Shown here piece by piece: positions 48,694 through 63,660 of a DNA stretch of 64,000 bases; the first letter of the stretch is position 1; the number at the start of each line of letters is the position of its first letter. The stretch lies in contig NZ_CP011032.1 of NCBI RefSeq assembly GCF_002310815.1, positions 536,001 to 600,000 on the forward strand, given 5' to 3'. This stretch comes from Pseudoalteromonas tunicata (GTDB taxonomy: Bacteria; Pseudomonadota; Gammaproteobacteria; Enterobacterales; Alteromonadaceae). Position numbers and translations under genes: made by a program. A model generated the notes under the pieces. The model worked only from the letters and a program-made list of their open reading frames with translations, was not told where the DNA came from and did not search any database.

Positions 48694-49620
48694 ATGCAAT
48701 CAGTTGCAAATAAACTCAATGATGAGATTGAATTAACTCAGTTAATCTCTGCGCTCTGGCAAGGGAAAATCTTAATTGTAGGATTGGTGATTCTGTGTTC
48801 GGCTTGCAGTGTATTTTATGCGTTATCGTTACCAAATATATATAAATCAACAGTACTACTGACCGCAGCTGATGAAAGCCAAAATTCTGGCATGTCTAAA
48901 TTAAACTCTCAATTTGGGGGGTTGGCAGCCATGGCTGGTGTAAAGCTTGGTTCTTCCGGTGTTGATAAATCAGCGCTTGCGCTTGAAATTATAAAAAGCC
49001 ATGCCTTTATAGCTGAATTTATTGATAAAAATAACTTGAAGCCTCTGATTATGGCTGCGGATAATTGGGATTTAGGTACTAATAAAGTATCCTATAAACC
49101 ATCTGTATATAATGCAGAGTCAAAAGTTTGGGTTCGTGAAGCTAAAATTCCTCGCTTACCTGAACCTAGCTCTCAAGAAGTGCACGAAAAATTTATTAAA
49201 GAGCACTTATCTATTAATTCAGATAAAAAGTCGAATTTAGTTTCAATTTCTATCTTTCATGTTTCGCCCTACGTAGCAAAAGATATTGCAGACAAGCTTG
49301 TAGTCGCTATCAATGCAAAAATTAAGAAAGATGACATTGATGAAGCAAATAAAAGTATTGCATATCTTACGTCCGCATTGGGGCAGACCGCTGTCGCTGA
49401 TATGCAAAAAATATTTTATGAGCTCATTGAGCAACAAGAACAAACAAAAATGTTAGCTAATGCTCGAGATCAATATGTATTTAAGGTGATTGATCCCGCG
49501 GTCGTTGCGGAATTAAAAGATAGCCCTAAAAGAGCCATTATTTGTATTTTTGGTAGTGTGCTTGGATTTTTACTTGGTTGCGGCTTTGTTTTAATTCGTT
49601 ATTTTTTGAAAAAGAGTTAA
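48694..49620 (+). CDS. wzz: Wzz-type polysaccharide chain-length determinant
   Basis: Polysaccharide co-polymerase of 308 residues. A membrane helix at about 28-50 (ILIVGLVILCSACSVFYALSL), the Wzz N-terminal domain (YKSTVLLTAADES), a long helical periplasmic region, and a second membrane helix at about 280-302 preceded by the Pro-containing DSPKRA motif (family: P-x2-P-x4-P/A). It lacks a BY-kinase domain. It controls sugar chain length for O-antigen or exopolysaccharide. A hairpin with GTTTTTA follows. Confidence 0.9.
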   Translation: MQSVANKLNDEIELTQLISALWQGKILIVGLVILCSACSVFYALSLPNIYKSTVLLTAADESQNSGMSKLNSQFGGLAAMAGVKLGSSGVDKSALALEIIKSHAFIAEFIDKNNLKPLIMAADNWDLGTNKVSYKPSVYNAESKVWVREAKIPRLPEPSSQEVHEKFIKEHLSINSDKKSNLVSISIFHVSPYVAKDIADKLVVAINAKIKKDDIDEANKSIAYLTSALGQTAVADMQKIFYELIEQQEQTKMLANARDQYVFKVIDPAVVAELKDSPKRAIICIFGSVLGFLLGCGFVLIRYFLKKS

Positions 49621-49737: not shown

Positions 49738-49820
49738 CGATTTATATTTATGCCATTAAATTTGTTTTTTTTATGGCCTGTATTACAATATTCACCACAA
49801 TTGGAATTGTATTTAAAATC

Positions 49821-50882
49821 ATGTTTACTGAAACATTAACGATATTTTTTGCTTTTTTTGCATCTTATTTTGCAATCCTTACAATTAAACCTCTAGCTAT
49901 AAAGGTGGGTTTAGTTGATGTGCCTTCAGGGCGAAAAAAGCATATTGGAGCAATTCCTCTTATTGGCGGCTTGTCTATCTTTGTAGCTGTGCTGATGTCT
50001 GTACTGATGTTTTTCCCATTAGATAAATCATTAGTAAGCTATTTGGTGTGTGCAGGAGCAATTGTTGTTTTAGGGGTGATAGATGATTATCGCCAATTAG
50101 GAGTAAAAATAAGACTCTGCATTCAAACCTTAGTTGCATTAGTAATGATGTGGGGTTCAGAAGTTTATATCCATAATTTGGGTGATTTATTTTCCTTTGG
50201 GGTAATTGATTTAGCTTGGTTAGGTATTCCTTTTACTATTGTTTGTGTTATTGCTGCGATTAATGCATTTAATATGATTGATGGTATCGACGGTCTTGCT
50301 GGTTCGCTTAGTATTACCACCCTTGTATCAGTGTTTCTTCTGATGATGTTCAGCGGCAATTTTTCTTTGGCTGCCTTACCGTTAATCATTATCGCCACGA
50401 TAGTGCCTTATCTAGCGTTTAATTTGGGCGTTAAAGGGCATCGAAATCGTAAAATCTTTATGGGTGATGCAGGTTCAATGTTCATCGGTTTAAGTATTGT
50501 TTGGTTTTTAATGGTGGGTACGCAAGGTGAAAATTCTGCATTTCGCCCTGTGACTGCTTTATGGATAATCGCAATCCCATTAATGGATATGCTTGCAATT
50601 ATTATTCGTCGAGTTAAAAAGGGACAATCTCCTTTTATGGCAGACCGTGACCATCTACATCATGTATTTATGCGTATCGGGTTTAGTCCTCGTCGTGCAC
50701 TTTCAGTTATTGTCGTTTTTTCTATGGTAATGAGTGGGATTGGGATTTTAGGGGAATTCTTAGCTGTACCTGATGTCATAATGTTGGTGTTATTTGTTGC
50801 TGTGTTTATGGGTTATTCAACGTGTATTCAACATTGTTGGAAGGTTGCACGGTTTTTAAGGCGTCGTAAGAAAAAAGCTTAA
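49821..50882 (+). CDS. wecA: Undecaprenyl-phosphate GlcNAc-1-phosphate transferase (WecA)
   Basis: Starts assembly of O-antigen or related lipid-linked glycans by making Und-PP-GlcNAc. About 353 residues and 10-11 membrane helices. Motifs: GLVDVPSGRKKHIGAIPLIGG, VIDDYRQLG, NAFNMIDGIDGLAG, KIFMGDAGSMF and the DRDHLHHVF histidines. The frame is open from 49773, but ATG 49821 aligns with the E. coli start; neither has a clear Shine-Dalgarno. It completes a three-gene polysaccharide block with wzz and the SLBB export gene; further glycan genes are absent because the T2S-like operon follows. Confidence 0.92.
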   Translation: MFTETLTIFFAFFASYFAILTIKPLAIKVGLVDVPSGRKKHIGAIPLIGGLSIFVAVLMSVLMFFPLDKSLVSYLVCAGAIVVLGVIDDYRQLGVKIRLCIQTLVALVMMWGSEVYIHNLGDLFSFGVIDLAWLGIPFTIVCVIAAINAFNMIDGIDGLAGSLSITTLVSVFLLMMFSGNFSLAALPLIIIATIVPYLAFNLGVKGHRNRKIFMGDAGSMFIGLSIVWFLMVGTQGENSAFRPVTALWIIAIPLMDMLAIIIRRVKKGQSPFMADRDHLHHVFMRIGFSPRRALSVIVVFSMVMSGIGILGEFLAVPDVIMLVLFVAVFMGYSTCIQHCWKVARFLRRRKKKA

Positions 50883-51049: not shown

Positions 51050-51460
51050 ATGAAGCAAAGAAATTCAGCTCCTCAATCTGGTTTTACTATGATGGAACTA
51101 CTGATTGTAATCGTTATTTTAGGCTTACTAATGTCTCTTGTAGCACCTAAATTTTTTAACAAATTAAGTACGGCAGAGCGTGGCATTGCAGCTACTCAAA
51201 TGTCTGCATTTGAAACTGCATTAGATACTTATCGATTAGACTTAGGTAAATACCCACAAAAGCTAGAAGACTTACGAGCGGGCACCGAACCTCGTTGGGA
51301 TGGTCCATATTTACCAAAAGATATCCCACTTGACCCTTGGGGTAATCCTTATATCTATAAAGTTCCAGGTGAAGATGGTCGTCCTTACAGCATAATGTCT
51401 TATGGTGCCGATGGTAAGCTTGGCGGTGAAGACAGCAACGCAGATATAGTTCACAATTGA
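51050..51460 (+). CDS. gspG: Type II secretion-like major pseudopilin GspG
   Basis: 136 residues. Prepilin cleavage site SG/FTMMELLIVIVILG with Glu5, a hydrophobic N-terminal helix, and the GspG C-terminal signature: WDGPYLPKDIPLDPWGNPYIYK, DGRPYSIMSYGADGKLGG and EDSNADI (read in parts), the calcium-binding loop. ATG at 51050 is chosen; an open frame reaches 50996 but would put too many residues before the cleavage site. First gene of the operon; gspE starts in the TGATG of its stop. Function: main subunit of the pseudopilus that pushes substrates through the secretin. Confidence 0.93.
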   Translation: MKQRNSAPQSGFTMMELLIVIVILGLLMSLVAPKFFNKLSTAERGIAATQMSAFETALDTYRLDLGKYPQKLEDLRAGTEPRWDGPYLPKDIPLDPWGNPYIYKVPGEDGRPYSIMSYGADGKLGGEDSNADIVHN

Positions 51461-53112
51461 TGGATATGTCACAATTATTGCGTGATGAATTTTTTATCAC
51501 GCAAACAGACCTTGAGCGCGCTCTTAGTTTTCAACAGCGCTTTGGTGGTCGTTTAGAGCAAATATTGGTTAATATGGGCAGCTTGCCTGATGACCAAGTA
51601 CCTCATTTCTTATCTCGCTATTTAGCTATTCCCTTATTCGACTTGTTTTTTTGGCAAGAACAAGTGTTGCCAAAAATTACCGACGAAGACTTTAAACTAC
51701 TGTTATCTAAAAATTGGTTACCGTTAAAAGTTGATGGTAATAACTGGCAGTTTGCGTGTGTTTTTCCTTTAGAATTAACCATTAACGAATGGTTAAGCAA
51801 AAAAAATATTAATGCTGAATTATTCATTGCAACCGAATCTGATATTCAAAGCTTACTGAGCCAATATGAGCAACATACGGTAGAAGAGGATAACTCTGAG
51901 TTTATAGGTGATGAAGATGATAGGCTACGTGAGCTTGCAACCGAAGCACCCACAGTTAACCTACTTAACTCTTTAATATCGCGTGCTTTGCGCCAAGGCG
52001 CATCAGATATGCATCTTGAGCCTTATCAGGGGCGTTACCGCGTACGTTATCGTGTTGATGGGGTATTGCATGAGGTTGAGCGTTTAGCACCAAAAATGCA
52101 GCTACCAATCGTCACGCGTTTAAAGATTTTATCGGGTATGGACATCGCTGAAAAGCGCCGTCCACAAGATGGAAAAATTGAGATGAAAATCTCAAATCAA
52201 GAAATCGATATTCGAGTATCTGCACTGCCTCTAAACGATGGCGAATCAGTGGTAATGCGTTTTTTACGTAAAGATAATGTGCAATATGCGATGTCAGTAC
52301 TCGGTTTATCGGCTGATATCGAAGCCATGATCCAGCGAGATATTCGAACCACAGCGGGTGTAGTATTATTAACCGGTCCGACCGGTTCAGGTAAAACCAC
52401 CACACTGTATACTTTTTTAAATGCACTCAATAATGATGATGTAAAAATCATCACACTTGAAGATCCGGTAGAATATCAGTTGCCAGGCATTAACCAAGTG
52501 CAAGTTAACAGCGACATCGGTTTTGACTTCTCAGCTGGTCTTAGAAGTATTGTACGTCAAGATCCTGATATCATTATGCTGGGTGAAATTCGAGATAAAG
52601 AAACTGCACAAATCGCGTTGCAATCTGCGTTAACGGGTCACTTAGTATTTTCAACCGTACATACCAACGATGCTGCCAGTGCTTATACTCGCTTACTCGA
52701 TTTAGGGGTAGAAGAGTTTTTACTTAATGCTGCGTTAGTCTCGATAGTCGCACAGCGTTTGGCGCGTAAAATTTGTAGCCAGTGCAGCGAACCACACCCA
52801 CAAGCACAGCAGCTGATCGAAAAATATCACTTAACCGCATTTGCAGATAAATTTGAGTTAGGTGAAATTAATTTACGCAAAGGGGCAGGTTGTGATCATT
52901 GTTCTAATACCGGTTACAAAGGCCGTATGGCAGTAACTGAGTACTTAGGTTGTGATGATGCTATTAAAGCGATGCCAAAAGATGCTGACTTTATCAACAA
53001 AGCCAAAGCGCATAACCAATCGTTAAATCGTCGTACCTTGCTTGAAGATGGTTTATACAAAGCAGTGCAAGGGTTAACGACCATTGACGAAGTATTGCGA
53101 GTTGCGGGTTAA
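51460..53112 (+). CDS. gspE: Type II secretion-like ATPase GspE
   Basis: Cytoplasmic hexameric ATPase powering the pseudopilus. 550 residues: N-terminal domain (about 1-150) that binds GspL, then the catalytic core with Walker A GPTGSGKTTTLYT near residue 305, the Asp and His boxes (ITLEDPVEYQ, GHLVFSTVHTNDA), Walker B DPDIIMLGEIRDKETA and the C-terminal four-cysteine zinc module (CSQC and CDHC). ATG 51460 overlaps the gspG stop by one base. The zinc module is typical of GspE and PilB, not of PilT. Confidence 0.94.
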   Translation: MDMSQLLRDEFFITQTDLERALSFQQRFGGRLEQILVNMGSLPDDQVPHFLSRYLAIPLFDLFFWQEQVLPKITDEDFKLLLSKNWLPLKVDGNNWQFACVFPLELTINEWLSKKNINAELFIATESDIQSLLSQYEQHTVEEDNSEFIGDEDDRLRELATEAPTVNLLNSLISRALRQGASDMHLEPYQGRYRVRYRVDGVLHEVERLAPKMQLPIVTRLKILSGMDIAEKRRPQDGKIEMKISNQEIDIRVSALPLNDGESVVMRFLRKDNVQYAMSVLGLSADIEAMIQRDIRTTAGVVLLTGPTGSGKTTTLYTFLNALNNDDVKIITLEDPVEYQLPGINQVQVNSDIGFDFSAGLRSIVRQDPDIIMLGEIRDKETAQIALQSALTGHLVFSTVHTNDAASAYTRLLDLGVEEFLLNAALVSIVAQRLARKICSQCSEPHPQAQQLIEKYHLTAFADKFELGEINLRKGAGCDHCSNTGYKGRMAVTEYLGCDDAIKAMPKDADFINKAKAHNQSLNRRTLLEDGLYKAVQGLTTIDEVLRVAG

Positions 53113-54314
53113 TGGCATTATTTAATTACAAAGCTTACGATAGTTCAGGCGCTAAAACCGATGGCCAGATTGAGGCCACCGACCAAGCTCATGCCCTAGA
53201 GTTACTGAAAAAGCAGGGTTTACTGCCCTCAGAAATTAAACTCTATCAAGAGCCTGGTAAAAGCGTATTAAGTTTTGGTGATAAAGTAAATCTGGCCGAT
53301 TTAGAGTTTTTAACCGCAGAGCTGAGTTTGTTATTAGAATCGGGCGTTAAAATTGACCGCGGTATCGATATCATTCGTAAAACCAAAGCAAAACCTGCAT
53401 TGGCTAAGTTACTCAATGAGCTCAATCAGAGCATCAAAAAAGGCAATAACTTGTCTGATGCGTGCCGCGAGCACCCCGAAGTATTTGATGAACTCTATTG
53501 CAACCTGATTGAACTGGGTGAAGCGTCGGGTAATTTAAGTGAAATTTTTGCTGATTTAGCCAAAGATTTAAAATTTAAACGCGACTTACGCAGCAAAATA
53601 ATTAGCTCGCTCACGTACCCAAGCGTTATTTTCTTTGTCTGTATTTTAAGCATTGTCTTCATTTTTAATTTTATTATTCCAAAAATGTCGAGCATGTTTG
53701 CCGATGCAAAAGACTTACCCTGGTACACCCAAATGATGCTTAGCAGTAGCGAGTGGATGATGCAGTACCAAGGCCTGCTGTTAATTGGCTTAATCGCCAG
53801 TGTATTTGGCATTATTGCCGCTGCTAAACGCCCTAAGTTTTTAGCGTGGTGGCAAAATACGTCACTCAAACTGCCTGTAATCAAAACCGCGATTGTAACC
53901 ATTGAGAGAATTCGTTTTAACAGCGGTTTAGCTATGATGGTAAAAGCCGGTGTACCCATTGATAAAGCATTAGGCCTCTCAGCTGGTAACATTAAAAACC
54001 ATCAACTGCGCCGCGAAATGGAAATCGTAAAACAAAAAGTAAAACGTGGCAGTGCACTTACTCCTTCATTAAAACAGACCTCACTTTATCCTGATTTTTT
54101 TATCTCACTCCTTGAGGTTGGTGAAGAGTCGGGTAATTTAGAGCGAGTATTTAATGAAGTTGCAAACCGCTCGCGTCAAGAATTTGAAAGCTGGACCACA
54201 AAAATGACCACACTAATCGAACCGTTAATGATTTTATTTATGGGTGGATTTGTGGGTAGTGTGGTAGTTGTCATGCTACTTAGTATGGTTTCTTTAAATG
54301 ATGTCGGTTTTTAA
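53112..54314 (+). CDS. gspF: Type II secretion-like inner-membrane platform GspF
   Basis: 400 residues, the standard length. Begins MALFNYKAYDSSGAK, typical of the family; two repeated T2SF cytoplasmic domains (about 65-190 and 270-392; SLLLESGVKIDRGIDII and AMMVKAGVPIDKALGL) and three membrane helices (about 165-190, 220-240, 370-395). The second domain ends PLMILFMGGFVGSVVVVMLL. Start overlaps gspE by one base (TAATG). It holds the ATPase and pseudopilus at the inner membrane. Confidence 0.94.
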   Translation: MALFNYKAYDSSGAKTDGQIEATDQAHALELLKKQGLLPSEIKLYQEPGKSVLSFGDKVNLADLEFLTAELSLLLESGVKIDRGIDIIRKTKAKPALAKLLNELNQSIKKGNNLSDACREHPEVFDELYCNLIELGEASGNLSEIFADLAKDLKFKRDLRSKIISSLTYPSVIFFVCILSIVFIFNFIIPKMSSMFADAKDLPWYTQMMLSSSEWMMQYQGLLLIGLIASVFGIIAAAKRPKFLAWWQNTSLKLPVIKTAIVTIERIRFNSGLAMMVKAGVPIDKALGLSAGNIKNHQLRREMEIVKQKVKRGSALTPSLKQTSLYPDFFISLLEVGEESGNLERVFNEVANRSRQEFESWTTKMTTLIEPLMILFMGGFVGSVVVVMLLSMVSLNDVGF

Positions 54315-54317
54315 GTT

Positions 54318-54767
54318 ATGTTTACTGGATCATTGTCTCAGGCTAATTTATTGCATCACTCAAAGGGCTTTACCTTAATTGAGTTAATGATTGTTATGGG
54401 AGTTGTCGCGTTATTAATGGGATTGGTTGGTCCTTTAACAATGCAACAATTAGATAAAAATGAATCGCATGCCGAACTGTTAACTTTAAAAAGAGAGTTT
54501 AGCTATTTAAGTAAGGTTGCATATATTACTGGTCAAAGTTTTCAAATTAATATTGATGGGAAACAGCTTGAGATTATAAATCTCAACAATGGAAAGGTTG
54601 AATCCGTAAAAGAATATAAACAGCTTTTTTTTGATAAAAAAAGAGTTGTTATCAATAAGTCTGGTTTTACTAATGATATCGATATAGTTGTCAACTTCAT
54701 GAGTAAAAAAGACGTAATTTCATTGAATGATTTAATCAATAAGCCTTATACCGATGCTAAAAAATAA
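54318..54767 (+). CDS. gspH: Minor pseudopilin, GspH-like
   Basis: 149 residues. Prepilin motif KG/FTLIELMIVMGVVALLMG at about 17-34 with Glu5; the rest is short and AT-rich in DNA, without strong identity to known GspH, so the letter is assigned by position (after F, before I). Overlaps gspI by 14 bases. Likely part of the pseudopilus tip complex. Confidence 0.75.
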   Translation: MFTGSLSQANLLHHSKGFTLIELMIVMGVVALLMGLVGPLTMQQLDKNESHAELLTLKREFSYLSKVAYITGQSFQINIDGKQLEIINLNNGKVESVKEYKQLFFDKKRVVINKSGFTNDIDIVVNFMSKKDVISLNDLINKPYTDAKK

Positions 54768-55197
54768 TCGCAAAAAAAATCAAAGAGCAGGTTTTACTTT
54801 GATTGAAGTGATGATTGCGAGTGTTATTCTTTTTAGCTCAATCTCAGTGTTGGCTTTAATTTATAAAGGTGTTGTAGTCTCAACTATAAAGGCTGAAGAG
54901 CATGTTAGTATCAGTTTTGCTGTACCATTTATTCAAAAAGAGATTAGAAAAAATATTTTATCTAATACAAAACCAGATAGTGAATCAATGTCAGGGCAAG
55001 GTAATATTTTAAATGCTAAATATAAGTGGTCAGCTAATGTTACTCTTTATGAATCTCCACCTAAAAGCTATGATCCAGAAACTGGTGCGTTAGTTACTCA
55101 CCCGAAAAAATATAAAAAATGGTTAGTTGATCTATCAATTTCAGTTAACTCAACAAATCAAAGCTATCAGTATGGTGAAGTTTCTTGGCATGAATAA
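54754..55197 (+). CDS. gspI: Minor pseudopilin, GspI-like
   Basis: 147 residues. Prepilin motif AG/FTLIEVMIASVILFSSI, whose EVMIA pattern is typical of GspI (usually EVLVA). The C-terminal region is Lys/Tyr-rich. Assigned by motif and order. Overlaps gspH and gspJ. Confidence 0.75.
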   Translation: MLKNNRKKNQRAGFTLIEVMIASVILFSSISVLALIYKGVVVSTIKAEEHVSISFAVPFIQKEIRKNILSNTKPDSESMSGQGNILNAKYKWSANVTLYESPPKSYDPETGALVTHPKKYKKWLVDLSISVNSTNQSYQYGEVSWHE

Positions 55198-55876
55198 AAA
55201 TGGTTTCACATTGATAGAGTTGTTAATAACAACCACTATTTTAAGTCTTTTGCTATTTTTAGGATCATTCAGTTATCAATTACTTGCTAATCGATGGGAT
55301 AAACAGCTAGGTACTTTCGATCGTACTTTAGAGTTAACTAGAAATATAGAGTTACTCGAAAATGTTATATCAGGGATCGAACCTGCTGTAATTAACGATG
55401 AAAAACAGGGCACAGTTAATTATGGCTTTTTTTTTATTGGTACTGAAAGTCGTTTACTCTCAATTACTGAAAAAGGTTTGTTTTCTAAAAAATACCCCGA
55501 AATTTTTTTATTGTCACTCGAAAGTGCTGAAAATGAAACGTTCAATCTAGTCTATCAAAGCGTAAGTACCGAAAATGTATTGCTTTTATCTGCACAGCAA
55601 GAAATCGTTTTTGATCATCGCTATTTACTGCTCGGCAATATTAAAAGTTTCAAACTCAGTTATTTAGGTTGGGATAACATCATTGCAAAATCAGAAAGTA
55701 GTCAAACAGGTGTATTGTCAACGTGGAGAGATGACTTTTCGGGACTAGACTCTCAAGCATTGCCAAATGAAATAGAGGTTTTTATCGATAGTGAGCGCTT
55801 CTCCTTTTCATTTTCTTCAGACATTGAAAAGAACTCATTACGTTATTTAACACCTTACTTAGAAGGTTCCCAATGA
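55190..55876 (+). CDS. gspJ: Minor pseudopilin, GspJ-like
   Basis: 228 residues from the ATG at 55190, which overlaps the end of gspI; the frame open from 55127 lies inside gspI and would bury the cleavage site. Prepilin motif NG/FTLIELLITTTILSLLLF, then a larger globular domain (LELTRNIELLENVISGI and FKLSYLGWDN) that fits GspJ in size and in the GspI-J-K order. Stop overlaps gspK by four bases. Confidence 0.78.
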   Translation: MNKNGFTLIELLITTTILSLLLFLGSFSYQLLANRWDKQLGTFDRTLELTRNIELLENVISGIEPAVINDEKQGTVNYGFFFIGTESRLLSITEKGLFSKKYPEIFLLSLESAENETFNLVYQSVSTENVLLLSAQQEIVFDHRYLLLGNIKSFKLSYLGWDNIIAKSESSQTGVLSTWRDDFSGLDSQALPNEIEVFIDSERFSFSFSSDIEKNSLRYLTPYLEGSQ

Positions 55877-56766
55877 TTTACAGAAAAGGGATAGCCTTAA
55901 TTCAGGTATTAATTATAACTGCTATTTTGAGTGTTTTTGCGCTTTATTTGAATCAAACAGCTAAACAGCAAATTCATTTGGCAAGTTTGGCTCAAAAGAG
56001 AGCTGAAGCTGAAGCATTATTGTATTCAGCCCACTCAAAGTTATTATTTGAATTACTTACCACGGATAAGCTGCTGTATAACTCAGAGCAACCAATAGAC
56101 ACTTCTTCAAACAAGGCGAGCCATAGATGGAACTTTCATGGTCAGCCTTTTAATATAAATGATTTTGTGACTATAAAAATTCAGGATCAAGCTGGCTTGT
56201 TAAATCTCCATAAACCCAATATTGATTTACTCGAACAGTTTTTGATTAGCAATAATATAGGCTTAACAAGAGCTCGTATCATCATTGATAGTTTGTTAGA
56301 CTGGCAGGATAAAGATAGTATTAGCAGAGAGTTTGGTAGAGATTCAGTAGACTTAAATAGTGTCAGAAATGGACCTCTAAATGATCTAGAAGAGCTAGAA
56401 AAAGTTGTACTTCTGAGTGATGAAGAAAAAAAGCTTTTATTTGATAATACAACAGTCAGTTTTATTGGTCACTTTAATCCTATGAGTGCATCAAAAGAGC
56501 TGATTAAAAGTATTACAAAAAATGTTGGCTCAGAACGAATAATTGAAAGACTTCGAAATGAGAATGCATTATCAAGAGGTAAATTTGAAGATATAACAGG
56601 TATTCATGATAATGATAATACTTGGCTCACTGTCTCAAACACACTAAGAATAACTTATCAAGTTGAATACGATAGCATTAATTTAAAGAAAGAGTTCGTA
56701 ATAAAATTTAAGCCTTATGCTACAGGTAAGGTTTCTCCATATACTATTCTGTCAGAACGAAATTAA
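55873..56766 (+). CDS. gspK: Minor pseudopilin, GspK-like
   Basis: 297 residues. N-terminus KG/IALIQVLIITAILS: position 5 is Gln, not Glu, as is usual for GspK, the tip pseudopilin. The middle carries the helical saposin-like region with the GspK pattern DQAGLLNLH and ARIIIDSLLDWQDKDS. This is the clearest of the minor pseudopilins and fixes the cluster as type II secretion-like rather than type IV pilus. Confidence 0.85.
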   Translation: MIYRKGIALIQVLIITAILSVFALYLNQTAKQQIHLASLAQKRAEAEALLYSAHSKLLFELLTTDKLLYNSEQPIDTSSNKASHRWNFHGQPFNINDFVTIKIQDQAGLLNLHKPNIDLLEQFLISNNIGLTRARIIIDSLLDWQDKDSISREFGRDSVDLNSVRNGPLNDLEELEKVVLLSDEEKKLLFDNTTVSFIGHFNPMSASKELIKSITKNVGSERIIERLRNENALSRGKFEDITGIHDNDNTWLTVSNTLRITYQVEYDSINLKKEFVIKFKPYATGKVSPYTILSERN

Positions 56767-56771
56767 ATAGC

Positions 56772-57896
56772 ATGCAACAAAATTTAAGTGTTTTAAAAAA
56801 AATAAAAAATTATATATTTAGCTTTTTTTTATCAAAAGTTGGCTATTACAATGGAACGTTATACCAGATTAATTATATTAAAAAAAAGCTTGAGGTAGTT
56901 GATGATTTCACTCCCATCTTTCTAATTGTTGCTAATGAATATTATCATGAGGAATCAATAAAGCTTCCTGTAGCAGAATCATCTGAAATCGCAAAACTGA
57001 TCAAATTAGAAAAAAATGACACTAATGCGCTTCTTATTGCGAGTAAATTACCTGATGCGACATTTGTTAATAAGTGGTCTTTTTCTTTTATACCTGTAAA
57101 GTCTTTATTTTATATCCCTGAGTCTTTTGTCTTTGCGAAGTTAGTTTCAAATAATCATATTATAAAGATAGTGAGTGGCCCTGAACGTGATTTTTTTGTT
57201 ACCCGCTTGCGAAATAATATTATTACAAGTGCTAGAAAGCACGGTTGGATTGATAGCTTTGAACGATTTTCTATGTCCATCGGGGTGATAAACCAAAGAA
57301 CTGAAGATATAACCGCTGAAAATTTAGCTGTACCTTTAATTTCAGGTATCAAAGGAATAAAATTTTTAGAGCTATTTCCATTTTTAAAAATTAATCGAAA
57401 TATTGATTTTTTATCTGTAATTAAAAATTTATTATTACCAGGTTTCTTACTATTTACATGCTTTTTAATGATCAGTTCATTGTTAATTTTTTCTCGTGGT
57501 ATTTATTTAGAACAGCAAGTTAATCAAATGAAGAATGAATTAAGTTACATGCTTGTCAATAATGATGAATTTGAAATAGAACGAACAAAGTATGAATCGC
57601 TATATTCTATTTTTAGTAATAAAAATAATCATTTAGCTTTGTATATTACGCTTGCTCCTGTTTTTGATATCGCCACTCTAAGCAGTGTACGTTTTGAACT
57701 TGGCCGATATATAATTCAAGGTGAAACCGAGCAAGCTTCAGACTTATTAGAGCTTATTTCAAGTCAAGTAAATGTTGTTAATGCAAAATTTGATTTACCA
57801 GTAACTAAAAATGGAGCTCGAGAGCGCTTTACAATGAGTTTTTTGGTAAATCCAAATCAAATAAAAATCCCTTTGGTTGAAAGTAAAAATGAGTGA
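56772..57896 (+). CDS. gspL: Assembly-platform protein, GspL-like
   Basis: 374 residues. A cytoplasmic part of about 220 residues, weakly similar to the actin-like domain of GspL, one membrane helix at about 222-247 and a periplasmic ferredoxin-like part (about 290-365; VRFELGRYIIQGETEQASDLLELI). The N-terminal half is divergent and very AT-rich in DNA. Assigned by order, topology and the downstream GspM-like partner. Confidence 0.7.
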   Translation: MQQNLSVLKKIKNYIFSFFLSKVGYYNGTLYQINYIKKKLEVVDDFTPIFLIVANEYYHEESIKLPVAESSEIAKLIKLEKNDTNALLIASKLPDATFVNKWSFSFIPVKSLFYIPESFVFAKLVSNNHIIKIVSGPERDFFVTRLRNNIITSARKHGWIDSFERFSMSIGVINQRTEDITAENLAVPLISGIKGIKFLELFPFLKINRNIDFLSVIKNLLLPGFLLFTCFLMISSLLIFSRGIYLEQQVNQMKNELSYMLVNNDEFEIERTKYESLYSIFSNKNNHLALYITLAPVFDIATLSSVRFELGRYIIQGETEQASDLLELISSQVNVVNAKFDLPVTKNGARERFTMSFLVNPNQIKIPLVESKNE

Positions 57897-58449
57897 ACTT
57901 AAAAAGCATGCGCCCTTATTAGCAATAGCTTTATTTTTGGTAATTCTTAAATTTTTTTTCGTACCTGTATTTGAGTGGCAGGAACGAGAGTTAAGTGAGC
58001 AAAAGCTCACATTGAGAAAAATTGAAAAATCAAATTCTCTATTAGAAAATAAAGAGCAATTGATTGAATTAAAAGGAAAGCTTCAGGCTGAGCTAAGTGA
58101 AATATCAACTTTTTTCTACCCTTATATGGAAGAGAGTAGATTTAAGTTAGAGCAACAAAAAATAATAGAAGCTCAATTAAATCAATATCAATTAACAAGT
58201 AAGCGATTGGGTTGGTTGGTCAATTATGAAGAGACAAATCCTGCAATAATAAAATTAGACCTTGAATATAGTTTTGAAGGTGAGGGTAGTCAGGTATTTA
58301 GTTATTTATTGCAATTAAGTGCCGATCCTAAAGTACATGTGATTAGTAAATTAAATCTAGGATTTAGAGGGCAAAGGCCAGGGAACTTAGGGATAGTTAC
58401 GGTATTCATGGCAAAAAGTTATTACATGCATAATGATAAAGGTCAGTAG
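57889..58449 (+). CDS. gspM: Assembly-platform protein, GspM/PilO-like
   Basis: 186 residues from ATG 57889, which overlaps the gspL stop. A short cytoplasmic N-terminus, one membrane helix at about 10-28, a coiled coil and a periplasmic ferredoxin-like domain (KLDLEYSFEGEGSQVFSYLLQL). In PilO/GspM fashion it probably pairs with the GspL-like protein. Confidence 0.7.
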   Translation: MSELKKHAPLLAIALFLVILKFFFVPVFEWQERELSEQKLTLRKIEKSNSLLENKEQLIELKGKLQAELSEISTFFYPYMEESRFKLEQQKIIEAQLNQYQLTSKRLGWLVNYEETNPAIIKLDLEYSFEGEGSQVFSYLLQLSADPKVHVISKLNLGFRGQRPGNLGIVTVFMAKSYYMHNDKGQ

Positions 58450-59028
58450 ATGAATTTACAGTCAGTAGTGTGTTATATGAAAAGACTAGATGTTAAATTT
58501 AGTTTGTTTATTGCTATTATTTATTGTTCTTATTACTCATTAACTGTTTTTAACTTTCAGGGGAATATAAACTCCCAGCAGAGCGAGGTTGTTGAAATTG
58601 TCGATTTTGTCGACGATACAATCTCAGCTGAAAGTGCAAAAAGCCTAGTCAAACTTTACGAGCGTTTTGTTGTAAAAGATGAGTTAGACCCAATCGTTGA
58701 CACCGTAGTTAAAAAGCTAACCCTTGAAGAGCAGTTGAAGCAATCTGGCGATTTAAATGAGCTCTTTATTGATGATTACAAATTGACACTAAAAGCTGTT
58801 ATTCGAGATAATTTTACAAAGCTTACTTATGCTTTAGTTTTAGTTGATAATATGCAAACCGGTATTTCTGAATTGAAACGAGTTGATGAATCATCAGATT
58901 TATATGGGTACAGAGTTTCAATTATTAGTAATAAATCAATTAAGTTAGATATTGACAGATCGGGTTCTCTCCAAAGTATAAATCTAACAATGTTTAAAAA
59001 TTTAAAGCCATTAGATACAGAATTATGA
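58450..59028 (+). CDS. GspC/XpsN-like secretin-docking protein
   Basis: 192 residues: one membrane helix at about 17-35, an acidic linker and a homology-region-like beta domain (LTLKAVIRDNFTKLTYALVLVDNM, YGYRVSIISNKSIKLDI; read in parts) similar to the HR domain of GspC and to PilP. There is no PDZ or coiled-coil C-terminus. Position immediately before gspD matches xpsN of the Xanthomonas Xps system, where a GspC-like protein stands at that place. It probably contacts the secretin N0 domain. Confidence 0.68.
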   Translation: MNLQSVVCYMKRLDVKFSLFIAIIYCSYYSLTVFNFQGNINSQQSEVVEIVDFVDDTISAESAKSLVKLYERFVVKDELDPIVDTVVKKLTLEEQLKQSGDLNELFIDDYKLTLKAVIRDNFTKLTYALVLVDNMQTGISELKRVDESSDLYGYRVSIISNKSIKLDIDRSGSLQSINLTMFKNLKPLDTEL

Positions 59029-59039
59029 AAGGCGTTTTA

Positions 59040-61082
59040 ATGAATAAAATTAATGCTATCTCAATTACTATTGTTGGGTTGTTTGTATTAAATGGTTGTA
59101 GTGCAACGCAGAATAAATCTTTTTCACCGCAGCCATCTTATTTACATTCAAATATATCTGTTGTCGCCGATGGCGATGAGGCAGCTGTAAATGAAAAAAA
59201 TGAAGCATCCCAAAATAACGAACCAGATAAAAAAGTAGAGTATTTAACTCCTTTTCAAGTCATACAGCAGCAGGCACAAATAACCAATGACGTTATAGAC
59301 CGTTTTAGTGAACAAAAAACGATCGAAATGAGTGCAGAAACGCTGCCATTACAAGACTTTTTACATTTAGTTTTAGGTGAAAGATTAAAAGTAAGCTACG
59401 TCTTATCTGATGAAATAAAGGCAGATAGCCAATCGGTTACATTAAATATTCAAAATGCAGTCACTGAGCGTAAGTTGTTTCTTTTAACCGAAGAACTGAT
59501 AGATGAGCGTGGTTATACCATTCGATTTAATGATAATATTTTTTATGTCCATAAAAAAAATTCAGAGCAAGGCCAAACAGATTTAACTTATGGCTATGGT
59601 AAAAGTATCAACGATGTGCCACAAACAAGTGGTGATATTGTGCAAATGGTACCGTTTGAATATGGCATGCAACTCTCGATGTCAAATACTTTACGGCAAA
59701 TGATTGGTGTTAAATCAACGTCAGATCCTGCTCGTAATACCATTAATATCTTTGGTAAGCGACAAGATATTTTAAGGGCCCTAGAATTAATTGATATTTT
59801 TGACCGACCCGCAATTGCTAATAGACATATTGGAGTTTACAAATCCACCTTTGTTAATGGTACTGAATTATTAACCAAGTTAAAGGAACTGTTGACCCAA
59901 GAAGGGATTAAATTAGGCGATGGAATTGATACCAGCAGTACAATTACCGTCGTCAACATGGAAAAGCAAAATCGTTTAATCTTTTTTGCGGTTAAACAAG
60001 ATGTAATTGAGCGAGCAATTTTTTGGGCAAATCAAATAGATAAGCCAATTGATACAGCTGAGAAGCAATACTTTATTTACCAGCCGCAATATTCAAGAGC
60101 TGTTGATATGGGCGAAAGTTTAGAAGCGTTAATTGGTGAGGTAAGCTCATTAACAACAAGTACCTCGGCAGCTCAAGAAAATAGCAGAAAGCGTGGCGCA
60201 GTAACCGCAAGCTCAGAAGATTTAAAGATGGTAATTGATGAGCGTTCAAATTCGGTTATTTTTTTTACTACGGGTGAAAAGTACCAGCAAATTTTACCGC
60301 TTGTTAAACGGTTAGATATTTTGCCTAAACAAATTATGCTCGAAGTCATTATAGCTGAGGTGTCTTTAACTAATGAGTTTAAACAAGGCGTCGAATTTGC
60401 TTTCAAAAATGGAAATTATGGAACATCAACCGAAAAAGCATTTATGGGTGACGGTTTTGGTGGCTTATCTTATTTGCTGCAAGGAACACAAGGTAAACTG
60501 ATTGTTAATTTGTTACAAACTAACTCATTGGTTAATATTTTGTCACGCCCATCGTTAGTTGTTCGTGATGGTGTTAATGCAACCATTAATGTTGGAACTG
60601 ATATTCCAATTGTGGGAGAAACCGCATCTGACCCAATCAATGGTGACAGACAAACCACAAAAATTGAATACCGTAAAACAGGGGTTGAACTCGCGGTTAC
60701 GCCAACTGTCAATGCTCAAGGCATTGTCTTGATGGAAATAAAACAGAAAATATCTAATCAGGTTGAGTCGGGCTCTACCGTTTCGGGTAATCCTAGTGTA
60801 TTTGAGCGTACAATTAATACCGAAGTCGTGGCTGAAAGTGGCCAAACAATTATTTTAGGTGGTTTAATTAGCGAAAATAAAAGTACAAAAGCATCTCGTG
60901 TTCCCTTCTTTTCAGGTATCCCTATTTTAGGCAATTTATTTCGCGCCGACACTGAAAGTGGTGATAAAACTGAGTTGGTTATCTTAGTGACACCTAGAGT
61001 AATTGAGTCATCGAGTGAATGGGATGATGTTAAAAAACTGTTTGATAATGCGTTTGAAAATTTAAAGCTACCGCAAAAATAG
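59040..61082 (+). CDS. gspD: Type II secretion-like secretin GspD, lipoprotein form
   Basis: Outer-membrane secretin pore, 680 residues. A lipoprotein signal (LNGCSAT) replaces the usual Sec signal. N0 (about 95-165), N1-N3 domains (from about 205; NTLRQMIGVKSTSDPARN, then GVYKSTFVNGTELL) and a complete secretin core with VPFFSGIPILGNLF and ELVILVTPRVIE. ATG 59040 has AAAGG seven bases upstream; ATG 59025 overlaps the preceding stop and is possible. Self-lipidated secretins do not always need a pilotin; that is family knowledge, and whether it applies here is inference. Confidence 0.93.
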   Translation: MNKINAISITIVGLFVLNGCSATQNKSFSPQPSYLHSNISVVADGDEAAVNEKNEASQNNEPDKKVEYLTPFQVIQQQAQITNDVIDRFSEQKTIEMSAETLPLQDFLHLVLGERLKVSYVLSDEIKADSQSVTLNIQNAVTERKLFLLTEELIDERGYTIRFNDNIFYVHKKNSEQGQTDLTYGYGKSINDVPQTSGDIVQMVPFEYGMQLSMSNTLRQMIGVKSTSDPARNTINIFGKRQDILRALELIDIFDRPAIANRHIGVYKSTFVNGTELLTKLKELLTQEGIKLGDGIDTSSTITVVNMEKQNRLIFFAVKQDVIERAIFWANQIDKPIDTAEKQYFIYQPQYSRAVDMGESLEALIGEVSSLTTSTSAAQENSRKRGAVTASSEDLKMVIDERSNSVIFFTTGEKYQQILPLVKRLDILPKQIMLEVIIAEVSLTNEFKQGVEFAFKNGNYGTSTEKAFMGDGFGGLSYLLQGTQGKLIVNLLQTNSLVNILSRPSLVVRDGVNATINVGTDIPIVGETASDPINGDRQTTKIEYRKTGVELAVTPTVNAQGIVLMEIKQKISNQVESGSTVSGNPSVFERTINTEVVAESGQTIILGGLISENKSTKASRVPFFSGIPILGNLFRADTESGDKTELVILVTPRVIESSSEWDDVKKLFDNAFENLKLPQK

Positions 61083-61180
61083 TAATGTAAACAAGTGTAA
61101 AACGGTGAGAGTTAGCATTAAAGGTTTAGTTAACCGCAGTTATGGATAAAAGATTTACCAACAAATAAAAGTAAATAAAT

Positions 61181-61213
61181 ACCTAGGTTATTATCTCTAG
61201 CCATAGGTTTTTA
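61181..61213 (+). terminator. Probable terminator of the type II secretion-like operon
   Basis: ACCTAGGTTA (61181-61190) pairs with TAGCC-A-TAGGT (61198-61208) through ten pairs and one bulged A, loop of 7, followed by TTTTTAAA. It means the downstream surface-protein gene is transcribed separately. Confidence 0.55.
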
Positions 61214-61234
61214 AAGGTAATAAGGCGGATTTTT

Positions 61235-61269
61235 ACGTTAATGGCTCGTTAATTCAACGCCATTAACGT
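61235..61269. repeat. 11-bp perfect inverted repeat upstream of the surface-protein gene
   Basis: ACGTTAATGGC (61235-61245) and GCCATTAACGT (61259-61269) with a 13-base loop; no T tract on either strand. Possibly a protein-binding site. A related ACGTTAA...TTAACGT repeat occurs at 63791-63814 on the other side of the gene. Confidence 0.6.
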
Positions 61270-61308
61270 TGAAAACAGCAGCCTAAAATAGATTTATTAT
61301 TCTGTTTC

Positions 61309-61328
61309 GAGCTTAAGTGAGCTTAAGT
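61309..61328 (+). repeat. Tandem 10-bp repeat
   Basis: GAGCTTAAGT occurs twice head to tail. Each copy contains the palindrome CTTAAG. Confidence 0.7.
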
Positions 61329-61733
61329 TAAGTTTAACTAATAGTATACGTAAGGTTTTGATTAACGGGTGGTTAGCTAGTTCAAACTGTGAGGTGATGA
61401 GGTATTGCTTTTGATTAGCTAATCTCGATGAAGAGTATAAGCTAAGCCTCAGTATGATATTTAGACTCTTGGTTAATAAATCTCTAGCAGTAATAGTGAG
61501 AATAAAGTATTAAGCGACTGGTCAATTATGCGAAAATGTAACAATAAAGTTATTGATTATTCGTTGATAAGTTGAAAAAAGTTGAGTAGACTCGGTGTTC
61601 GTTATAGCTTATTTTTAAATTTATTCTAAACTGAATACCCTGTAACGAATGTATTGGCGCAGTAAAACACGATAAAAGCAGAACGCTTCGTATTTTATTA
61701 CGCTAATATGATTAAATTCAGTAAGGTAAAATG

Positions 61734-61763
61734 TTGACAGTTTGTTGTCGGCAGGCTTAAACT
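61734..61763 (+). promoter_or_regulatory. Strong-looking promoter of the surface-protein gene
   Basis: A consensus -35 TTGACA (61734-61739) is followed by TAAACT (61758-61763) with an 18-bp spacer (TTAAAC with 17 bp is the alternative). The predicted leader is about 105 nt. Confidence 0.6.
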
Positions 61764-61781
61764 TGCTGCGTTTGGTTGTTG

Positions 61782-61799
61782 CTTAGGTGACGGCCTAAG
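61782..61799 (+). ncRNA. 5' leader hairpin of the surface-protein mRNA
   Basis: CTTAGG (61782-61787) pairs with CCTAAG (61794-61799) soon after the predicted transcription start. Long structured leaders that raise mRNA lifetime are known for several S-layer genes; that role here is inference. Confidence 0.5.
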
Positions 61800-61874
61800 T
61801 ACAATAAAAAAAGTATGTGAAATAATAGACTAATACTATTGTTTCAGTTTCATGAAACTTGGAGAATGGAAATT

Positions 61875-63605
61875 ATGTTCAAGAAAACTCTACTAGCACT
61901 AGCAATTACTGGTGTTTCTGTAGCAGCTAATGCAGCTGTGGTAAAAACAAGCGTAACAGCAACTACTGCTGTTTTACAACAAACAGCAATTGGTACTGCT
62001 AAAGCTCACGCTAAAGGTACTGCTCTAGGTGCTTCTGGTGTGTTCGGTACAGCTGCAGATGCAACAAATTCAGCTAACTGTAAAGCATTAGCTGCTTTTT
62101 ATGGTGTTTCATTAACTAAAGCTGATGGTACAGCTGCTCACGCTGTTGCTGCTGATGGTTCAGGTGGCGACGTAGCTACTTTTGCTGATGGTTCAGGTCG
62201 TGAATTAACAACAGTACACACTACAGCTGCTAATGCTTGTCTTGCAACTGTTAAACCAGTTCTTTCTACTACCGCTGCTAAAGATGGTCTTGAGTACACT
62301 CAAGCTACAGCACTTGAAATTAAACCAGTTATTGTTGCTGGTATCGGTGGTTACAAAGCTGAAGATACGTTAACGTTCCAATTCTCTGGCGCTAAATTAG
62401 ATTTAACTAAAACAACTGCTCCATCTATTACTGTTGCAGCAGCTGGTCAAGCTGGTGCTGGTGTGACATTTGATATCCTTGATATCACTGATTCACAAAT
62501 TCGTTTCACCGTTAAAGCAACTACTCCAGCGAATGATTTTGTTCGTGGTAACGGTATTTTAGAATTAAGCAACATCTTCCTAGATTCTACAGGTCTTGCT
62601 GCTACTACTTCTGTAATGGTTAATTCTTTTGGTACTAATACATCAGGTACTAAATTTGATGAATCAACAGCTGCAACGATTGTATCTTTACTTCCACAAT
62701 ACACTACAGAAGTAACTACGTTACTTGATGCAGATATCGATGTAGGTAAAGATCGTCAACAATTTGCTAACAACTTAACAGCTGATGTTTTAGCTGTTAA
62801 ACACACTAAAAACCCAACATCTGCTAACGTATTAGTTCCTGCTAATACAACTTATGTTGTTACTGGTGATTTCTCTTGGGCTTATGCGCCAAGCGTAGAT
62901 ACAAACAAAGATGGCAAATTATCTTCAGCTGAGTTAATGGCTGCGAATGTTGCTGTTTTAGCTGGTGGTGATGATACAGTTAAGTCTTTAGCTCTTAATG
63001 CTACAAACACTGAATTAACAATTGTTACTAATATTGTTGGTGCTGCATTAGATGCAACTAACACTATTACATTCAATGTTCCAGGCTATGATTCAGGTAA
63101 AGGCACTAACCCAATGATTTCTGTTCAAGATTTCACGGTTAAAGTTGATACTATGTCTGATAAATCAGTTGGTAGCAAAGCTGTAAACATGCCATCACTT
63201 GCTAAAACAGCAGCTGGTACATGGAAATTAAATGGTTCTGTTGTTGTTGTTCCTTATGTTCCATTTGGTCCAGCTACACAACCAATTTTACGCCACACTA
63301 ATGCTGGTACACAAACTGGTGATATCACAGTTCGTTACATGGTTGAAGGTGTTCACACTGCATGGCAATCACTTGCAGCAGCTGGCATCAAAGATGCAAA
63401 ACCTGGCGTACGTGATATGTTAGGCCTAGTAACTGACGCACTTAAAGGTGAAGGTTATGACTCTACAACTACTGGCTTCAAAGTAGCTTTAGAAGTTGTA
63501 ACTAACGTTCCTTCAAAAGACGTGTTCGTATACGGCGGCGCTAAAATCACTGCTGAAGGTCAAGATCGTATCCATTTAGGTACTTTCAAAACTAACGTAA
63601 ACTAA
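61875..63605 (+). CDS. Secreted S-layer-type surface protein (Slr4-like)
   Basis: 576 residues from the ATG at 61875, which follows GGAGAATGGA; the frame open from 61839 is longer but places 12 residues before a clean signal peptide (FKKTLLALAITGVSVAANA). The mature protein is very rich in Ala, Thr, Val, Gly and Asp, with few aromatic residues and two Cys near the N-terminus (NCKAL, ACLAT) that could form a disulfide. A perfect EF-hand loop DTNKDGKLSSAE lies near residue 342, suggesting calcium binding. Codon choice looks like a highly expressed gene (GCT, ACT, GGT, CGT favoured). Composition, size and location fit the Slr4 S-layer family described in Pseudoalteromonas tunicata; this is from recall and unverified. 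Confidence 0.75.
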   Translation: MFKKTLLALAITGVSVAANAAVVKTSVTATTAVLQQTAIGTAKAHAKGTALGASGVFGTAADATNSANCKALAAFYGVSLTKADGTAAHAVAADGSGGDVATFADGSGRELTTVHTTAANACLATVKPVLSTTAAKDGLEYTQATALEIKPVIVAGIGGYKAEDTLTFQFSGAKLDLTKTTAPSITVAAAGQAGAGVTFDILDITDSQIRFTVKATTPANDFVRGNGILELSNIFLDSTGLAATTSVMVNSFGTNTSGTKFDESTAATIVSLLPQYTTEVTTLLDADIDVGKDRQQFANNLTADVLAVKHTKNPTSANVLVPANTTYVVTGDFSWAYAPSVDTNKDGKLSSAELMAANVAVLAGGDDTVKSLALNATNTELTIVTNIVGAALDATNTITFNVPGYDSGKGTNPMISVQDFTVKVDTMSDKSVGSKAVNMPSLAKTAAGTWKLNGSVVVVPYVPFGPATQPILRHTNAGTQTGDITVRYMVEGVHTAWQSLAAAGIKDAKPGVRDMLGLVTDALKGEGYDSTTTGFKVALEVVTNVPSKDVFVYGGAKITAEGQDRIHLGTFKTNVN

Positions 63606-63628: not shown

Positions 63629-63660
63629 AAAAAGCGAGCTTCGGCTCGCTTTTTTATTTT
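63629..63660 (+). terminator. Strong Rho-independent terminator after the surface-protein gene
   Basis: AAAGCGAGC (63631-63639) pairs with GCTCGCTTT (63644-63652) around a TTCG loop, followed by a long T tract. It resembles the secA terminator in design. Confidence 0.9.

Follow-up and report, generated by a model that had tools for sequence, protein, structure and literature searches.

A type II secretion operon beside the S-layer gene slr4 of Pseudoalteromonas tunicata, and its pairing with coat genes in related genomes

The DNA analysed here (the window, 64,000 nucleotides of Pseudoalteromonas tunicata) carries an operon of eleven type II secretion system (T2SS) genes, directly followed by slr4, the gene of a surface-layer (S-layer) protein. 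Very probably this T2SS is dedicated, or nearly so, to the export of Slr4. An S-layer exporter had been proposed in the original prediction, and the near-strict pairing of operon and coat gene across genomes supports it. The publications cited in this text were available in part, and what is said of them refers to those parts. The pairing and the proposal of dedicated export are already in print: Ali et al. 2020 described Slr4 as the S-layer protein that forms a square lattice in P. tunicata (the lattice is lost upon deletion of the gene), and T2SS genes directly upstream of slr4, also in homologous loci, for which a dedicated system was proposed (PMC7821379). The proposal was restated in AnnoView 2024 (PMC11094555). 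Added here are a counted pairing of operon and coat gene, and a second cassette in which a related T2SS adjoins another coat-like family.

The operon and its pairing with slr4

Eleven open reading frames (ORFs) on the same strand (+), overlapping or closely spaced, occupy positions 51050–61082 in the order gspG-E-F-H-I-J-K-L-M-(C-like)-D, with gspG at the front as predicted. The product of gspG (51050..51460), the major pseudopilin, matches T2SSG and scores above the T2SS equivalog cut-off (TIGR01710, 132.7 versus 88.85 bits). The secretion ATPase GspE (51460..53112), with the Walker A motif GPTGSGKT and two CxxC pairs, the inner-membrane platform protein GspF (53112..54314) and the secretin GspD (59025..61082) are above the cut-offs of Pfam T2SSE (419 bits), T2SSF, and Secretin (154.5 bits) and Secretin_N, respectively; their best-matching T2SS equivalogs, TIGR02533 (522.5 bits, cut-off 630.25), TIGR02120 (320.7 bits, cut-off 424) and TIGR02517 (290.3 bits, cut-off 351.35), remain below cut-off. 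The minor pseudopilins are gspH-like (54318..54767), gspI-like (54754..55197) and gspJ-like (55172..55876), each with N_methyl above cut-off and T2SS-specific models below it (gspH 44.2 bits; weak XpsI and gspI matches; weak matches), position supporting the naming of the last two, and gspK-like (55873..56766; T2SS_GspK 42.9 bits, cut-off 130; T2SSK_1st 22.4 bits, E 2e-4, cut-off 26.2). The gspL-like (56772..57896) and gspM-like (57877..58449) products gave no family match in Pfam and NCBIfam scans and are named by place and synteny.

The gspC-like gene (58450..59028) had been described as reduced to a transmembrane segment and an HR-like domain, and the structure model agrees: a membrane helix (residues 13–41) is followed by an HR-type domain at about 100–180, which according to the model leaves no space for a PDZ domain. 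GspD, called a lipoprotein in the original prediction, has a lipoprotein-like start reading ...VLNGC. The strict lipobox pattern is found in 65 of 71 GspD relatives; the remaining six, the window's among them, have Gly-Cys near the N-terminus. No prepilin peptidase gene lies within the operon, as had been noted, and one only was seen in the whole genome (C1:740919-741623). The Xanthomonas Xps T2SS, as the original prediction noted, also has a GspC-like gene before gspD at the operon end; the NCBIfam models XpsF and XpsI match window proteins far below cut-off.

The MshEN region of GspE (window 51460–51620) scores just above cut-off with NCBIfam NF053729 (39.4 versus 38 bits). Control by cyclic di-GMP through this domain was considered and set aside: the second MshEN-type motif, which we take to contribute to binding, has Glu in 99% of 70 relatives where the MshE-like ATPase of the genome has Gly, and binding is thus unlikely.

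The gene downstream, claimed to encode an S-layer-type protein, is slr4 (61866..63605, + strand; 579 residues), with a Pfam Slr4 (PF19526) score of 247.8 bits against a cut-off of 25; it is the sole Slr4 match of its genome. A homologue search with the protein gave 65 proteins, the window's counted in. The protein has a signal peptide followed by beta-rich domains; these are of the Ig-like beta-sandwich type in the structure model (mean pLDDT 91), whereas published threading gave a beta-helix (PMC7821379). Sequence searches of the PDB with the C-terminal domain and with Slr4 yielded no relative (best E 0.23, and none at E ≤ 1, respectively). RsaA is absent from the displayed structural matches of the Slr4 model, which leaves a likeness to RsaA possible.

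To count operon and coat gene together, 395 family genomes were taken as an even sample of a larger group; as members of one family they do not count as independent rows. Slr4 (E ≤ 0.001) was present in 85 of them, in 83 above the Pfam cut-off, and a GspD match (E ≤ 1e-70) in 106, of which 80 are at least 34% identical to the window's GspD and 26 are at 27–32%. The line at 34% that defines the window's GspD type was drawn after the gap between 34% and 32% was seen. Slr4 occurs in 78 of the 80 genomes with this type, and in 76 of the 80 its gene follows that of GspD directly, in the same orientation; from the matched GspD stretch to the matched Slr4 stretch the median distance is 600 bases (77 pairs, one from the lower-identity group). 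The case that would have spoken against the original prediction, an operon often lacking an S-layer-type gene, was not observed. Slr4 is on a different contig from GspD in two genomes (G713, G444), and two others (G656, G469) have the GspD type and no Slr4 match. In G656 the expected place is taken by a protein of 572 residues that carries the Slr4 C-terminal domain (E 5.9e-8 among 2093 ORFs). Within the genus of the window, the ten genomes with Slr4 are the same ten that have this GspD type, and the 20 displayed genomes that lack Slr4 all lack it too (17 without a GspD match at the threshold; G590, G614 and G744 with the second branch described below).

Sequences were fetched for 71 of the 80 loci (left out were G604, G680, G649, G660, G628, G711, G449, G550 and G462), and 66 could be used for gene order after five with gspG or gspD uncalled had been dropped. 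The order is kept in 65 of the 66 related loci, and an ORF of the C-like type is likewise present in 65 of 66; in the odd locus, L084, an additional ORF matches GspD weakly. In a sample of 394 genomes across the order, Slr4 was found in 18, and matches to G, E, F and D stand beside it in all 17 loci besides the window's (eight of the same family, nine of other families). One of these, L044, belongs to another T2SS lineage. In L038 and L039 (G075, G150) the Slr4 gene is on the opposite strand, ahead of gspG, and in L038 gspD comes after gspH.

Several loci are irregular in themselves. In G448 (L067:6644-10669) a deletion runs from gspF into slr4 and has taken out the genes from gspH through gspD together with the beginning of slr4; it is a natural joint loss of machine and coat. 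The Slr4 match of G706 is on a 4-kb contig. G518 (L069:13420-13881) encodes a protein of 153 residues with nothing but a signal peptide and the C-terminal domain of Slr4, next to a 1601-residue repeat protein and with no T2SS match in 20 kb. Members of genus g17 (e.g. G465, G628, G638, G660), with genomes of about 2.6 Mb, have three or four clustered Slr4 matches.

Relation to the general T2SS, and a second branch with its own coat-like family

Apart from this operon, the genome carries a general T2SS cluster (C1 3514.7–3525.9 kb, L006), which is homologous to the operon of the window (E 41%, F 28%, G 35%, and D 27% over 409 residues) and differs from it in organisation: its order was read as gspC-D-E-F-G-H-I-J-K-L-M-N, GspN is present, and its GspC combines a T2SSC domain with a PDZ match below cut-off (23.3 versus 27 bits). 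The original prediction left it to GspD and GspE trees to decide whether the S-layer-linked systems form a lineage of their own. As judged by the GspE sequences they are a lineage apart from the general T2SS: in a tree of 42 rows, hand-chosen to span the groups (39 of 105 GspE plus three other ATPases encoded in this genome), the GspE linked to S-layers make up one side of a branch (29 versus 13 rows) supported at 100/100 and found in 100% of 200 bootstrap trees. Opposite them stand the GspE of the general T2SS, those three other ATPases, L044 and eight loci from a third group (see below). The GspD tree is undecisive on this point. In a quick GspE tree of 108 rows, five changes were needed for the window's GspD group and two for the second branch.

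This second branch was recognised in 16 of the 26 lower-identity genomes (loA), in which the gene order is G-E-F-H-I-J-K-L-M-N-D as far as called (L070 was partly visible). Nine of ten loA rows form a branch of the GspE tree (100/99) inside the S-layer clade, with L045 apart. Directly before or behind the operon, a secreted protein of 571–653 residues is encoded in 14 of the 16 loci; L045 instead encodes another protein, of 663 residues, that matches the C-terminal domain weakly (E 4.5e-4), and in L070 no such secreted protein was found within 8 kb. The family is at the edge of Pfam Slr4. The proteins of L050, L054 and L059 scanned alone gave no Slr4 match; genome searches gave weak matches inside three of the 14 (G598, G555 and G657; 37.2, 36 and 20.6 bits, two of them above cut-off), and Slr4 is carried by 4 of the 120 homologues listed out of 178 in all. 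In a profile comparison of the second family with Slr4 the last 109 columns align (probability 75%, E 2.6e-5). A profile built from 57 Slr4 C-termini matches all 14 loA proteins (E 7.5e-14 to 1.3e-4), its first match outside coat-like proteins being at E 0.19. The shared C-terminal domain corresponds to positions 63204..63602 (+) of the window and is common to Slr4, the second family and the more distant T2SS-linked proteins described below.

A scan of named genomes with the second family alone gave 15 loci, with the operon adjoining in 15 of 15 and a DsbA-like thioredoxin in 13; these overlap with the 16 loA loci, several genomes being shared (the second-cassette loci are L046-L057, L059, L071 and L137-L151). 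Among the loA loci, 12 of 16 have the thioredoxin, which was found in none of the loci of the other groups (0/71 for the window's type, 0/9 and 0/10). The 14 loA coat-like proteins have 4–6 Cys each; among 73 proteins encoded after gspD in loci of the window's type and at order level, one of which (L042) is a mispicked ORF, 34 have no Cys, and the window's Slr4 has two. We read these sequences as a second coat family that may require disulfides and usually brings its own oxidoreductase. The literature search found no publication on this family in the sources as far as available; some of its members may figure among the Slr4 homologues of Ali et al., which extend down to 13% identity (PMC7821379).

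Ten more distant loci (loB) have another order, E-F-G with mostly L-M-N-D on the opposite strand; a protein with the C-terminal domain was found at E ≤ 3e-4 in seven of the ten, weakly in two (0.068 and 0.86) and in one not at all. This third T2SS group with a secreted C-terminal-domain protein is represented by L060, L061, L063, L064, L072, L074 and L075, and in L061, L063, L072 and L074 a second, similar gene adjoins that of the domain protein. A broadened domain profile matches 7 of 369 genomes of the class, five of them outside the order. T2SS-like genes are within the fetched stretch in four of eight class loci (L169, L171 at about 12 kb, L172 and L174) and were not seen in the fetched stretches of L170, L173, L175 and L176, apart from one weak GspG-like ORF in L176.

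Comparable arrangements have been described elsewhere. The S-layer protein NpdA, from Beta- and Gammaproteobacteria, has a 12-gene gsp cluster upstream (PMC10765051); like Slr4 it has a Sec-type signal and stands beside a T2SS cluster, the number of gsp genes differs, and the likeness is drawn from the published description. The distant C-terminal-domain proteins in other orders may be NpdA kin. The VapA gene of Aeromonas salmonicida adjoins a T2SS cluster needed for the S-layer (as cited in PMC10765051) and is likened to the window's locus in the same descriptive sense, an S-layer gene beside secretion genes. SpsD and ApsE, which the original prediction cited for Aeromonas, were not found by name in the available part of one review (PMC3658858).

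A wider picture, which we put forward tentatively and consider possible rather than probable when all its parts are taken together, is that the system of the window is one branch of a larger set of T2SSs that co-evolved with coats sharing a C-terminal beta-domain. The domain would be the address tag recognised by the machines (or a surface anchor), the N-terminal domains would build the lattice, and the family of about 600 residues would be a second set of S-layers in Pseudoalteromonas, Shewanella, Colwellia, Rheinheimera and some Vibrio. The role of the domain as tag or anchor is offered as a proposal. The domain was singled out for the sole reason that it is the part detectable across the families. 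The idea that it is the slow-evolving part of Slr4 was dropped: it evolves hardly slower than the rest of the protein (median pairwise identity 0.254 versus 0.236 in 72 proteins), which weighs against reading it as an address tag.

The gspD–slr4 interval and the surrounding genes

The gap between gspD and slr4 is about 780 bases. The terminator that had been placed after gspD was not borne out: a scan of the gap gives one weak site only (61749–61768, 7 pairs and a poor tail), and a 35-base hairpin with an 11-base stem (61235..61269, +) lacks a T run and folds only slightly better than shuffled sequences (z −1.55; 16 of 200 shuffles equally good). The clear intrinsic-terminator-like site lies 3' of slr4 (63629..63654, +), and such sites across the region are at chance level (9 found, 10.3 expected). 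A promoter-like TTGACA-18-TAAACT before slr4 was not used, such sites being rarer than in shuffles (37 versus 54.6). Strong expression of Slr4 in P. tunicata has been published (PMC7821379).

Upstream of the operon lie an MscS gene (44206; Pfam), a DUF481 gene, a Wza-like polysaccharide export protein with SLBB repeats that stands outside the T2SS (45952..48612, +; Pfam Poly_export, SLBB), a Wzz-like chain-length regulator (48694..49620, +; Pfam Wzz, GNVR) and a WecA-type sugar-phosphate transferase (49773..50882, +; Pfam Glycos_transf_4, WecA by reading). A flippase gene, together with glycosyltransferase and rfbB/rfbA-like genes (putative, by reading), lies past the right end of the window. 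A wza- or wecA-like gene is upstream in 45 of the 66 related loci, the visible upstream stretch being uneven among them. The coat cassette is thus often embedded among surface-polysaccharide genes, as would suit a coat that is anchored to sugars of the cell surface. Elsewhere in the genome there is a LodA_C match, presumably AlpP of P. tunicata.

Thomas et al. 2008 described, in P. tunicata, a Poly_export and a Wzz gene that follow an MscS-family gene and stand just ahead of a T2SS cluster (PMC2536512). The published slr4 has 1,737 bp and encodes a protein of about 59 kDa, about 57 kDa when mature, with a predicted Sec signal cleavage at 23–24 (PMC7821379); the gene of the window has 1737 coding bases without the stop, and its product is 59.2 kDa, or 56.9 kDa after a 23/24 cut. 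The published locus of P. tunicata D2 thus has the same gene pair, the same neighbours (MscS, Poly_export, Wzz) and the same length, mass and cleavage site, and among the features that could be compared in the available parts of the publications no difference was found. From length, mass, signal-peptide site and neighbours, the locus of the window is probably the published locus itself.

Export route, alternatives and meaning

We infer the following route and order of events. Slr4 would be the main or only cargo of the T2SS encoded directly upstream. It would pass the inner membrane by Sec, lose its signal peptide and fold in the periplasm, where the short GspC-like protein and the GspD channel would collect it; a pseudopilus driven by GspE would then push it out, and Slr4 would assemble on the cell surface. 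For maturation the pseudopilins would depend on the genome's single prepilin peptidase, which would also serve the pili and the general T2SS.

Several observations weigh against this route. The scores of gspE, gspF and gspD fall short of the T2SS equivalog cut-offs, slr4 begins about 780 bases past gspD and need not share its transcript, and the GspD tree (42 rows), with unsupported deep branches, shows no single S-layer clade (recovered in 4% of bootstrap trees). G469 (93% complete) has the operon and no coat gene in the 2.4 kb of contig past gspD; it is a true or an apparent exception to the pairing. Conversely, seven of the 85 Slr4 genomes lack this GspD type: four (G565, G598, G555 and G657) fall in the lower-identity group of 26 (the second branch), and the other three (G448, G706 and G518) appear degraded or truncated by the end of a contig. 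Transport is not proved by neighbourhood and co-occurrence, the compared rows of one family are not independent, and no mutant of this operon's gspD or gspE was found in the literature as far as it was available.

T2SSs usually serve many cargoes, and the operon could accordingly be a second general T2SS for several enzymes or adhesins, with Slr4 merely the most abundant cargo; that G469 keeps the operon with Slr4 not in place would agree with this. We nevertheless consider it unlikely in view of the near-strict pairing with Slr4 (78 of 80) and of Slr4 relatives with the second branch, and of the general T2SS cluster that the genome already has. Much less credible is the converse arrangement, in which the general T2SS exports Slr4 while the operon builds a pilus-like appendage or has another role and the linkage reflects co-regulation of surface structures. 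The wza- or wecA-like genes upstream of many loci speak for it, with the unevenness of the visible stretch in mind; the operon, however, encodes GspD, GspG, a GspC-like protein and a set of minor pseudopilins, and its link with the coat gene (76 of 80) is tighter than the one with polysaccharide genes (45 of 66).

Equally improbable, in our judgement, is that the linkage is only shared descent within one marine bacterial family. Most of the compared genomes do come from one family, and their rows are not independent, but within the genus presence and absence of the two go together in the ten genomes that have both and the 20 displayed genomes that have neither, and T2SS genes stand beside Slr4 in nine loci of other families (with L044 of another lineage and L038 and L039 rearranged). 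Dedicated or near-dedicated export of Slr4 by the adjoining T2SS is the reading we prefer.

General T2SSs carry many unrelated proteins, and how they recognise their cargo is a long-standing open question; we know of no obvious signal common to these cargoes. If the reading proposed here is true, machines each serving a single, abundant coat protein, with cargoes that have a C-terminal domain in common although the systems diverge, would make cargo recognition by T2SSs directly testable, and the thioredoxin of the second branch would predict which coats need disulfide bonds.

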